A stretch of 64,000 nt of DNA from assembly GCA_947174665.1 (NCBI GenBank), contig CAMWJV010000004.1, positions 1 to 64,000 on the forward strand, given 5' to 3'. The position numbers and the translations under genes are program-made. The DNA is from an uncultured Lachnospiraceae bacterium (lineage in GTDB: Bacteria > Bacillota > Clostridia > Lachnospirales > Lachnospiraceae). The notes beneath the pieces are model-generated. The model had not been told where the DNA came from. It saw nothing but the letters and a program-made list of their open reading frames with translations, and did not search any database. This document shows, piece by piece, positions 50,895 through 62,231 of the stretch (position 1 is the stretch's first letter; every line of letters begins with the position of its first letter).

Positions 50895-51923
50895 TTAGCG
50901 ATCCATCTCCGAAATTCTGCCCGTAGACTTATGCTCCTTGATAATTCCCTCAATTTCCGCAAGGTCGGTGCTCAGCAGATCTCCGGGAATAGTATTTTTC
51001 AGCGCACTGATCGCATTACCGTACTCCAGCGCTTTCCGATAATCCCCCTCATGAGCCAGCAGACCGTAGAGCACACCCGATATGTATGCGTCGCCGCTGC
51101 CGATCCTGTCTACCACCTCAATGTCCGCGTAGGGCGCCTCCTCGTAAAAAAGGTCTTCCTTTGCACTGTAAATGACCGAGCCGAAAGTATGGCGCTTGGG
51201 GCTGTGTACAATTCGCTGGGTGGAGGCCACAAGGGAGATGGGATAATCTTTGGTAAAGCTCTTCATGATACTTTTTACGTCACCTTCCTTCAGGAAAGTC
51301 AGACGAGCTGTATCCTCAGAACAAAAGAAAATATCCACATAAGGCAGAATAGATTCAATGCATTCCTTGGCCTCCGCTCCGGTCCACAGATTCCCCCGGA
51401 AATTCACGTCAAAAGAAATTATGGTTCCCTGTTCCTTGAACCGCTTGATCATTTCAATGGCCGTCTCCCTCACCTGAGAACTTAAGGCAAGGGTGATTCC
51501 ACTGGTGTGAAAGCATCTTGCCGCACTGAAGAGATGCTCATCGTAATCATCCACGGAGATTTTGTTTACGGAAGTGTTCTTTCTGTCATATACAATGCGG
51601 GGCTTTCTGGGGTAAGCCCCGTTTTCATAATAGTATACCCCCAGCCTTGCATCCCTGTCTTCATCGTATACCAGATAATCATCACTGACACCGCAGAGAC
51701 GAACTCTGTTCTTAATATAAATCCCCAGATCATTTGCGGGCAGCTTGGAGATAATGCCGCACCGCAGCCCCAGCATGGCTGCACCCGTGGCGGAATTCAA
51801 CTCCGCTCCTCCCGCCTGTTTGCTCAGAGTGTCACCTCTGGTTATCCTTTCGTTGTTCGGCGGTGACAGCCTCAGCATTATTTCGCCCAGCGAAAGTAAA
51901 TCAAAGTCCTTTTTCATGTCCAA
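50895..51923 (-). CDS. PfkB family carbohydrate kinase (KDG kinase-like)
   Basis: LSLGEIMLRLSPPNNERI, GGAELNSATGAAMLGL, VVDRIGSGDAYISGVLYGLL. Confidence 0.9.
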   Translation of the reverse strand: MDMKKDFDLLSLGEIMLRLSPPNNERITRGDTLSKQAGGAELNSATGAAMLGLRCGIISKLPANDLGIYIKNRVRLCGVSDDYLVYDEDRDARLGVYYYENGAYPRKPRIVYDRKNTSVNKISVDDYDEHLFSAARCFHTSGITLALSSQVRETAIEMIKRFKEQGTIISFDVNFRGNLWTGAEAKECIESILPYVDIFFCSEDTARLTFLKEGDVKSIMKSFTKDYPISLVASTQRIVHSPKRHTFGSVIYSAKEDLFYEEAPYADIEVVDRIGSGDAYISGVLYGLLAHEGDYRKALEYGNAISALKNTIPGDLLSTDLAEIEGIIKEHKSTGRISEMDR

Positions 51924-52014: not shown

Positions 52015-52136
52015 AAACTCGCAAGCCCGCGCTTTCGCGCTCTTTGTCCGATTTCATCGGACGCTTGCTCGTTAATAACCGCAGAAAAACAAATGCCGCT
52101 TCGCGTCGCTTGTTTTTCTCCTGCGCACAACAGATC
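52015..52136. repeat. Structured repeat element, copy A
   Basis: AAACTCGCAAGCCCGCGCTTTCGCGCTCTTTGTCCGATTTCATCGGACGCTTGCTCGTTAAT followed by AGAAAAACAA...TTGTTTTTCT stem. Confidence 0.85.
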
Positions 52137-52140
52137 ATAT

Positions 52141-52256
52141 AAGCTCGCAAGCCCGCGCTTTCAGCGCTTATTGTCCGATTTCATCGGACGCTTGCTCGTT
52201 AATGGCGCAGCAAAACCAAATGTCTCCTTCGGAGCCGCTTGGTTTTGCTTTGCGCC
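52141..52256. repeat. Structured repeat element, copy B (126-bp offset from A)
   Basis: AAGCTCGCAAGCCCGCGCTTTCAGCGCTTATTGTCCGATTTCATCGGACGCTTGCTCGTTAATGGCGCAGCAAAACCAA...TTGGTTTTGCTTTGCGCC. Confidence 0.85.
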
Positions 52257-52347
52257 TATTATATCATAAATGGCGCTCGCAGAAAAGAGTATGGCTGAAC
52301 TGTTACAATTTATACTGCTTAACAGTTAAAATTTCCGAGTAACCTGA

Positions 52348-52617: not shown

Positions 52618-53235
52618 TCAAAGTTTTACCAAAACGCCTGCTTCCCGCAGCTCCCTGCGCAGACGCGGAATATCGTCGTCAAACACAATTCCCCGGATTC
52701 CGGCACAGTATGCACCCTCCACATTGAGGGGAGAGTCATCAATAAACAGACACTCCTGCGCCTGCAGGCCGTAGGTGTCAAGCAGCAGCTGATAGATTTC
52801 TCTCTGGGGCTTTATCAACTTACACTCTGCGGACACAATACGCCCGTCAAAATATTCCGTGCCCGGAATCCTGTCGTGATATTTGCACTGCTGAATATTT
52901 GCGTTAGACAGCAGGTAGATTCTGTAACCCAGTTCTTTGATCTCGGCAACCAGCTCTTTCATTCCGGGCACCGGATTTAAAGGCCGTGCCCACCAGCGGA
53001 ACACCAGCTCCTCCACCGCTTTGTGAAGATGGGGCGGGACCCGCCTGCAGATGGATTCCACCGCCTCCGCCTCCGTGATCGTGCCGTGGTCCAGTTGAAC
53101 CCACTCCACCCGCCGGAACACTTCGCGAAGCAGGAGTCCACTGTCCTCCTCCGGCACACCAAGCCTCTTAATATACAGATCCGGAGAAAAATAAATAAGT
53201 ACCTGACCCATGTCGAAAATTATATTCTTAATCAT
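52618..53235 (-). CDS. HAD-superfamily hydrolase (HAD-IA type)
   Basis: IIFDMGQVLIYF, LLSNANIQQ, KPQREIYQLLL, CLFIDDSPLNVEGA; overlaps permease by 8 bp. Confidence 0.88.
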   Translation of the reverse strand: MIKNIIFDMGQVLIYFSPDLYIKRLGVPEEDSGLLLREVFRRVEWVQLDHGTITEAEAVESICRRVPPHLHKAVEELVFRWWARPLNPVPGMKELVAEIKELGYRIYLLSNANIQQCKYHDRIPGTEYFDGRIVSAECKLIKPQREIYQLLLDTYGLQAQECLFIDDSPLNVEGAYCAGIRGIVFDDDIPRLRRELREAGVLVKL

Positions 53236-61123: not shown

Positions 61124-61714
61124 TTATTCCCCCTGCCCATCCGGGCGGTTCTTTTTATTAAACCCATTCATCGCCGCATCGACATCCTGTGAAAGAATCA
61201 TTCGGATTCCATCGGCTGCCCTGCCCACGGAATCATCCATGATCTTTCGCTCCTCCGTGGAAAAATGCCCCAGTACATAATCTGCCAGATCCCATTCCTT
61301 TGGTTTTTCCCCCACGCCCACTCGAATTCTGACAAAAGTGTCATGTCCCAGGTGCGCTATGATGTTTTTCAGGCCATTATGTCCGCCTGCGCTGCCCTTT
61401 TTGCGAATGCGCAGCTGTCCCACATTTAGGCTGATGTCATCGGAAATGACCACCAGCTCTGCTGTCTCGTCCACCTTATAGTAATCGACCAGCTCCCGGA
61501 CACATTCCCCACTGAGGTTCATATAGGTAAGGGGTTTTGCCAGAATACATTTCTGCCCTGCCACCATGCCCTTGCCGATAACCGCCCTGTGCTTCATCTC
61601 CAGTATGGAGATATTTTCCTGTTCCGCAAGCTTATCTATGACTTCAAACCCGATATTATGCCTTGTGTTTTCGTATTTCTTTTCATAATTACCCAGACCA
61701 ACAATGATATACAT
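61124..61714 (-). CDS. pth: Peptidyl-tRNA hydrolase
   Basis: MYIIVGLGNYEKKYENTRHNIGFEVID, KPLTYMNLSGE, GGHNGLKNI, RIRVGVG; start after the repeat-derived ORF extension. Confidence 0.93.
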   Translation of the reverse strand: MYIIVGLGNYEKKYENTRHNIGFEVIDKLAEQENISILEMKHRAVIGKGMVAGQKCILAKPLTYMNLSGECVRELVDYYKVDETAELVVISDDISLNVGQLRIRKKGSAGGHNGLKNIIAHLGHDTFVRIRVGVGEKPKEWDLADYVLGHFSTEERKIMDDSVGRAADGIRMILSQDVDAAMNGFNKKNRPDGQGE

Positions 61715-61720
61715 ATCTAC

Positions 61721-61760
61721 CTCGTTTCGCGCTGGCGCGCTCTCTGTTTGGCTGACAGCA
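61721..61760. repeat. Partial copy of the structured repeat (C0)
   Basis: CGCGCTGGCGCGCTCTCTGTTTGGCTGACAGC versus CGCGCTGACGCGCTCTCTGTTTGGCTGACGCC in copy C. Confidence 0.7.
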
Positions 61761-61775
61761 TCACTCTGTTCGCTC

Positions 61776-61849
61776 AAACTCGAAAGCCCGCGCTGACGCG
61801 CTCTCTGTTTGGCTGACGCCAAACGCTTTCTCGTTAATGGCACTGCGCC
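61776..61849. repeat. Structured repeat element, copy C
   Basis: AAACTCGAAAGCCCGCGCTGACGCGCTCTCTGTTTGGCTGACGCCAAACGCTTTCTCGTTAATGGCACTGCGCC. Confidence 0.8.
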
Positions 61850-61855
61850 CATTAC

Positions 61856-61884
61856 ATCATAACGGATTCAATTTTAAGATGCAA
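61856..61884 (-). promoter_or_regulatory. Sigma-A type promoter for pth
   Basis: Minus strand TTGCAT-N17-TATGAT immediately upstream of repeat copy C. Confidence 0.6.
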
Positions 61885-61960
61885 GAGTAACTGCTCAGTT
61901 CATTTCAAATCCTGCAAGCTGATGAACCGGACGCAACAATTCATCCTTACAGCAAGTCAC

Positions 61961-62098
61961 ACCGACCGGGACAGTGGACTCCTGCTCAGACTCGTTCTCA
62001 CTCGAGAAAAAACGTAACGGTACATAAGTCTCCAAAGTACGAAGACTAAGTACCGACGTTTTTTACTGTCTGTGCAGGAGTCCACTGTTCCAGTCGGT
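61961..62098. repeat. Large (138 bp) multi-stem inverted repeat
   Basis: ACCGACCGGGACAGTGGACTCCTGC ... GCAGGAGTCCACTGTTCCAGTCGGT, nested AAAAAACGTaaCGGTAC/GTACCGACGTTTTTT and AGTCT/AGACT. Confidence 0.85.
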
Positions 62099-62231
62099 TG
62101 ATAGCAAGAATGTCTGAATTGTTACAACCGGACAGGGTTCCGGCAGAATTTAATAGAATTGAGGGTGGGTTTGTGGTAAGATAATAACATTGAGTAAATT
62201 GACAAAATTAAGGATTTTGGAGGTTACAGGC

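Follow-up and report, generated by a model that had tools for sequence, protein, structure and literature searches.

A structured repeat family of Lachnospiraceae, apparently mobile, at the 3′ edge of promoter −10 boxes

Correia/NEMIS elements of Neisseria are small mobile leader repeats that alter the expression of their neighbors; they carry inverted repeats of 26 bp and can themselves provide a promoter. BOX elements of Streptococcus pneumoniae are modular small repeats with strong folds and variation in tandem units; they are transcribed in UTRs, are regarded as non-autonomous mobile elements and have been linked to the terminal inverted repeats of ISSpn2, and pneumococcal repeats are over-represented between convergent genes (PMC3049150). 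Bacteria mostly tolerate small mobile repeats outside their regulatory regions, as between convergent genes (PMC3049150). In contrast, the family described here appears to insert, almost to the exact base, between a promoter and its gene, and promoters of essential genes are among its sites.

The window analyzed was a 64,000-nucleotide stretch of DNA from an uncultured Lachnospiraceae bacterium, in which a repeat element lies upstream of pth at 61715–61862 on the minus strand, the sense strand of pth. The source genome (G000) is a draft MAG of 3.54 Mb, 82.7% complete. A search of the whole window against Rfam gave no match at gathering thresholds, the permissive matches being implausible miRNA, and a literature search confined to papers available without subscription returned no fitting promoter-targeting small repeat or Lachnospiraceae repeat. 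The element belongs to a real and widespread repeat family, apparently undescribed, which is mobile and whose insertions lie at the 3′ edge of −10 boxes.

The element upstream of pth and its family

The features of the two loci in the window, all on the minus strand and with genes named by sequence, were as follows.

61879–61884, minus strand: −35-like hexamer TTGCAT of pth, host sequence that predates the element; the same TTGCATCTTAAA promoter is found at the empty sites of genomes G088, G044 and G127
61851–61861, minus strand: −10 region of pth, TATGATGTAAT, with the insertion boundary immediately 3′ of the −10
61839–61850, minus strand: collapsed remnant of module M1, GGGCGCAGTGCC; in complete copies M1 is a long 5′ hairpin
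61776–61838, minus strand: module M2 of the pth copy, a ATTAACGAG three-way junction with tandem G-A (covariance model 62 bits, E 1.1e-11)
61715–61775, minus strand: second unit, now decayed, of a 61-bp tandem duplication; it runs up to the pth ribosome-binding site (61728–61756 and 61789–61817 are 97% alike)
61124–61714, minus strand: pth, peptidyl-tRNA hydrolase, the downstream gene, with an orthologue in 130 of 138 genomes of the genus
52258–52268, minus strand: extended −10 of the kinase promoter, TATGATATAAT
52141–52257, minus strand: complete element (M1 and M2), first copy before the kinase (covariance model 135.6 bits)
52015–52128, minus strand: complete element, second tandem copy before the kinase (covariance model 115.7 bits)
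50895–51917, minus strand: PfkB-type sugar kinase, the downstream gene

Read directly on the minus strand, the pth leader runs TTGCAT-N17-TATGATGTAAT-GGGCGCAGTGCC-ATTAACGAGAAAGC-[GTTTGGC GTCA GCCAAAC]-AGAGA-[GCGC GTCA GCGC]-GGGCTTTCGAGTTT, followed by the decayed repeat and the pth start. The long 5′ hairpin of M1 is missing, with just GGCGCAGTGCC (61839–61849) left. In M2, ATTAACGAG-AAAGCG occupies 61824–61838, the first hairpin (GTTTGGC-GTCA-GCCAAAC) 61807–61824, the second (GCGC-GTCA-GCGC(G)) 61789–61801 and the closing arm GCTTTCGAG 61779–61787; the stems are GTTTGGC/GCCAAAC and GCGC/GCGC within an outer stem GAAAGC/GCTTTC. An earlier sequence-only reading of this DNA had described these stems and the exchange of the outer stem for the GCAAGC/GCTTGC of the kinase copies; all of the stems were found as described, and the exchange is a true compensatory change. 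Its motif has 3 matches in the window, against 0.27 expected from shuffles. The promoter that it had placed directly before the element, TTGCAT-N17-TATGAT, is also present, with TATGAT at 61856–61861; a second reading of the −10, the extended TATGaTGTAAT at 61851–61861 with TGTAAT at 61851–61856, is closer to the family consensus. What it had taken for a partial copy (61721–61760) is instead one unit of the 61-bp tandem duplication (29 nt, 97%), and the sister species G099 is one unit shorter.

Upstream of its pth promoter, at 61953–62146, G000 carries a further, separate insertion of 194 bp whose inverted arms are 31 nt long (CAGGAGTCCACTGT...). G099 has a clean empty site for it, TTAAATT/CTGTAAGG (the slash marks the junction), and the arm sequence occurs also at 53131 and nowhere else in G000.

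Complete elements measure about 115–125 bp and consist of the M1 hairpin, whose paired arms vary and whose core, AAGCG-stem-loop-stem-CATTT, is constant, followed by the ATTAACGAG three-way junction of M2 with AC-GA-GCAAGC...GCTTGC-GA-GT (tandem G-A). The consensus begins with GGCGCA and ends in GCGAGTTT, and these ends are not mutual inverted repeats. A covariance model (R1) was built from 9 seed copies with the promoter left out, and a pattern search of G000 yielded further copies; matches to ATTAACGAGNAAGCG with 1 mismatch were mostly real copies, with L008 and L012 resembling chance matches. In the seed, 93.4% of positions were paired and 13 pairs were doubly changed, compared with 6.7 after shuffling. 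In an alignment of 63 distinct copies, which was fitted to the model and so leans toward structure, the paired share of cells was 95.7% and double changes affected 32 of the 39 pairs, against at most 13 in slid structures. The copies form one structured family with strong covariation.

R1 matched about 33 places in G000 (E < 1e-3) and was found in 99 of 138 genomes of the genus, with up to at least 26 places per genome, and in 34 of 298 genomes of a family-wide sample (32 of 280 Lachnospiraceae genera). Named genomes with the M1 core pattern were nearly all Lachnospiraceae, including Acetatifactor muris, Kineothrix, Hominisplanchenecus and Butyribacter. The pattern had a single match in 2.9 million viral contigs, and a phage-borne origin was rejected.

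The M1 core also occurs in other surroundings. A second element type has it inside another palindromic unit (TTATACCATGNGCGCAG...AAGCCATGG...GGTATAATG...TTCTGCG), with copies of a −10 sequence on the flanks (L043, L045, L046 and L047 in G000; also L081, L102, L147 and L157), and one copy of this type stands between the SDR promoter and an M2 copy. A further type holds the core within TATAAT-NTTCGCGAACACAATGAGCC...GGCGAATGTGCGCGAACCATGATG (L082, L083, L090, L120, L135, L195).

Position at promoters and empty orthologous sites

Position was scored at the 90 places with at least 60 bits, with a −10 defined as a hexamer with at most 1 mismatch to TATAAT. The element started 0–5 nt past a −10 in 78 of the 90, 53 of these having an extended TGn; the same test at shifted positions, used as controls, gave 0–12 of about 89. 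Upstream of the element, also among 164 M1 copies, only an extended −10 and a weak −35 at normal spacing were conserved, which indicates unrelated host promoters and not a copied flank. The next gene lay on the same strand in 67 cases and on the opposite strand in 15 by automatic ORF calls, with the start codon a median of 65 nt downstream; this ratio understates the orientation bias because of ORF miscalls (at L029, L032 and L052, for example, the true gene is co-oriented). Thus, the element starts at the 3′ edge of the −10 box and is mostly co-oriented with the next gene. A check of the genome-wide copies for random orientation and location, which the sequence-only reading had named as grounds for giving it up, did not go against that reading.

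The downstream genes, named by sequence, included pth, PfkB kinase, lepA, gyrB/parE, glyA, leuC, a sirtuin, a short-chain dehydrogenase, def, lepB, fba, dapF, rhaB, mutS2 and a Sua5-type gene. They have no common pathway and form no coherent regulon. A riboswitch was rejected because of the missing pathway; the covarying fold between promoter and gene that a cis-regulatory leader would have is present.

In other genera, some copies adjoin terminators or stop codons and not a −10, and the target is therefore not the −10 alone. One subfamily from other Lachnospiraceae stands immediately behind intrinsic-terminator T-tracts (TTTTTGTAGCGAGG...; L097, L100, L123, L133, L151, L166, L178).

Orthologous promoters were compared between G000 and its relatives. 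At pth, the element is present in G000 and G099 and absent in G088 and G044 (86–87% protein identity) and in G127 (80%), in which the same TTGCATCTTAAA...TTATGATGTAAT-type promoter is followed directly by the ribosome-binding site and start codon. Since three species keep the promoter without the element, the simplest history is gain by insertion, presumably in an ancestor of G000 and G099. At DUF1015, G099 reads GGTATAAT/CAAGTATAGC and G000 reads GGTATAAT/AACAAGTGC and on into the element; followed beyond the insertion, GGTATAAT/CAAGTATAGCAC of G099 corresponds to GGTATAAT/AACAAGTGC...element.../CAAGTATAGCAC of G000. Empty orthologous promoters were likewise found in relatives for SDR, lacI, lepA and leuC, with additional cases at sua5, rhaB and mutS2; at fba, the site is filled in G044, and G088 has no copy despite 96% identity in the gene start. 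As the empty sites keep the same promoter, the promoter was rejected as a part of the element.

Identity was 0.66–0.98 over the 50 nt that end with the −10 and 0.50–0.63 in the next 30 nt (a gapped score with an uncalibrated random level). The exception was DUF1015, at 0.77 in the 30 nt past the −10, because the inserted AACAAGTGCAAAAGAAAAACAAG happens to resemble the flank. The sites at pth, DUF1015 and lacI hold no remnant bases; those counted as empty at fba, SDR (G088 and G044) and rhaB (G044) hold a few bases that are possible remnants of a lost copy. Together, the empty sites in relatives argue for a mobile repeat landing at promoters and against a conserved pth leader. The sequence-only reading had offered a leader RNA or a promoter-associated mobile repeat, and it is the mobile-repeat half that is strongly supported by the 78 of 90 starts at a −10, the co-orientation and the empty sister promoters.

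At occupied sites, copies are quickly truncated or duplicated in tandem, and the M1 hairpin is exchanged for another. Truncated copies are common. G000 and G099 agree in flanks and M2 at two loci, sir2 and L022/L281, and have quite different M1 hairpins there, each fully paired; these differences and the truncations point to rapid sequence turnover at fixed sites. At pfkB, the element is present in all four close species. In the glyA leader of G044 (L235), a different structured insert directly follows the −10, where G088 has the element.

Fold of the hairpins, route of insertion and alternatives

Apical loops were GNA triloops or GNNA tetraloops in 147 of 158 M2 and 45 of 53 M1 hairpins (192 of 211 in total), compared with 3 of 46 terminators and 2 of 64 other hairpins (5 of 110). 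The RNA-type GNRA was not preferred (19 GNRA, 24 GNYA). DNA mini-hairpins with GNA loops are known to be extraordinarily stable (references in PMC6479982), and in the promoters of phage N4 a hairpin extrudes from supercoiled DNA only if it has the loop G and A and a closing C:G pair (PMC4496689). In 152 of 164 copies, a paired run of at least 4 bases in the outer 5′ arm of M1 started within 3 nt of the −10; 85% of outer arms paired over at least 5 bases, against 33% when arms were swapped between copies. With a transcription start placed about 7 nt past the −10, most of this arm would probably lie outside the RNA. The hairpins are thus likely to act as DNA, given three indirect observations: the GNA/GNNA loops, a type that stabilizes DNA mini-hairpins and lets them extrude, the position of the outer arm in the normally untranscribed promoter discriminator and the mobility of the element. 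The tandem G-A of the sense strand, an RNA-friendly motif, counts against folding at the DNA level.

The best explanation, which we regard as moderately probable, is that the family is a small non-autonomous mobile repeat that inserts immediately 3′ of existing −10 boxes, along the direction of transcription, between promoter and gene. Counted against it are the missing linked transposase (in a draft genome, 82.7% complete), terminal inverted repeats and clear target duplication, and the copies of other genera that adjoin terminators or stop codons. No duplication was evident at pth, DUF1015 or fba; some copies have a second −10-like sequence, TGATATAAT, at the 3′ end, and a second −10-like sequence is frequent in tandem copies. 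Retention of the element at a few genes, such as pfkB, also counts against it, since a selected leader would give the same picture. By the route that seems most likely, RNA polymerase would open the −10 and leave single-stranded DNA there, and the element DNA, as a folded single strand, would enter the opened promoter region. Such entry would account for position, orientation and loop type together. We put forward tentatively, as possible and less likely than not, that the target is the open promoter complex, that the folded strand enters the melted −10 always along transcription, and that genes across the genome thereby gain a common extrudable DNA hairpin and leader. An effect of the element on its host gene, through start-site use, mRNA stability or translation, is predicted as likely.

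The strongest alternative, which we judge unlikely, is a cis-acting leader RNA under selection (a stabilizer of mRNA 5′ ends or a site for a global RNA-binding protein) that was spread between promoters by recombination; what would count is its location at the 5′ end of the RNA. Such an RNA would fit the strong covariation in the sense orientation, the RNA-like invariant core AAGCG..CAUUU with tandem G-A, the retention at pfkB in four species and the re-supply of a different and still paired M1 at sir2 and L022/L281. It fits poorly with genes that share no pathway (pth, lepA, gyrB, sir2, glyA, leuC, fba, mutS2, def), with orthologues that are often empty or truncated, with loops that follow the DNA rule (24 GNYA, 19 GNRA) and with an outer M1 arm that is probably upstream of the start site.

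Descent from IS200/IS605 or REP/RAYT elements, whose subterminal hairpins are recognized as single-stranded DNA by a Y1 (HUH) transposase and which insert 3′ of a short target without duplication, would be in keeping with the lack of inverted repeats, the hairpins near both ends, the fixed 5′ flank, the single orientation and the DNA-type loops. Transposases of this type are the obvious candidates for the mobilizing enzyme. The descent is made improbable by the transposase: no Y1 transposase (PF01797) was found in G000 (82.7% complete), its occurrence showed no excess with copy number (13 of 36 element-rich genomes, 45 of 138 genus-wide), and none of the loci read held a transposase flanked by M1 or M2.

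The 61-bp tandem duplication, the many half-hairpin remnants and the replacement of whole hairpins at a fixed site would also be expected without real mobility, if promoter palindromes grew and were corrected or swapped by replication template switching, giving perfect pairing and apparent covariation in single events; the same long and specific M1 and M2 at dozens of unrelated promoters in 32 genera is beyond local supply, and this explanation is very improbable.

Least credible is a diverged member of Clostridiales-1 (RF01699), an sRNA gene in Rfam, since the full-length match at 52130–51983 reaches 16.2 bits, far under the gathering score of 48, the pth region has no match and the true copies of G000 (L014, L015) start with another first hairpin and are not immediately preceded by an evident −10, even though the M2 junction is common to the Clostridiales-1-like loci L016 and L017 (E 2.5e-5 and 1.8e-4). 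Two genuine Clostridiales-1 RNAs and four weaker ones (L016–L019) were seen in G000, with the M2 junction shared by L016 and L017. Because this junction is also that of the present family, RF01699 may belong to a wider group that is possibly mobile.

Implications and comparison with known systems

If the proposed targeting is true, transcription initiation would define the integration site. Comparable integration sites, defined by transcription initiation, are known for yeast Ty elements. The same folded leader, repeatedly gained and lost at orthologous promoters, also forms a natural experiment in which its effect on expression is measurable, and it illustrates that covariation in a bacterial leader need not imply a regulatory RNA.

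Among known systems, BOX is the functionally closest kind of small interspersed repeat, being likewise modular, folded, mobile and built with tandem units; by its description (PMC3049150), it is set apart from the present family, which has no inverted repeats and of which most copies are sense-oriented after a −10. REP/BIME and IS200/IS605-type elements share the hairpin ends, the lack of inverted repeats and the fixed short 5′ flank, whereas the family here has no Y1 association and has the promoter −10 as its target. MITEs of the DDE-transposase type are similar in their many small non-coding copies and their insertion polymorphism between relatives, but have terminal inverted repeats matching a resident IS, and such repeats are missing here. 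Unlike Correia/NEMIS elements, the family does not bring the promoter, which pre-exists and is kept at empty sites. The GAGCAA..UUGCGA three-way-junction module is shared with loci resembling Clostridiales-1 RNA (RF01699; PMC2864571), from which the family differs in first hairpin, genomic position and a score far below threshold. The early-promoter hairpins of phage N4 (PMC4496689) have the same C(GNA)G form; they are recognized by the phage polymerase and are not mobile, and the resemblance is one of mechanism only.
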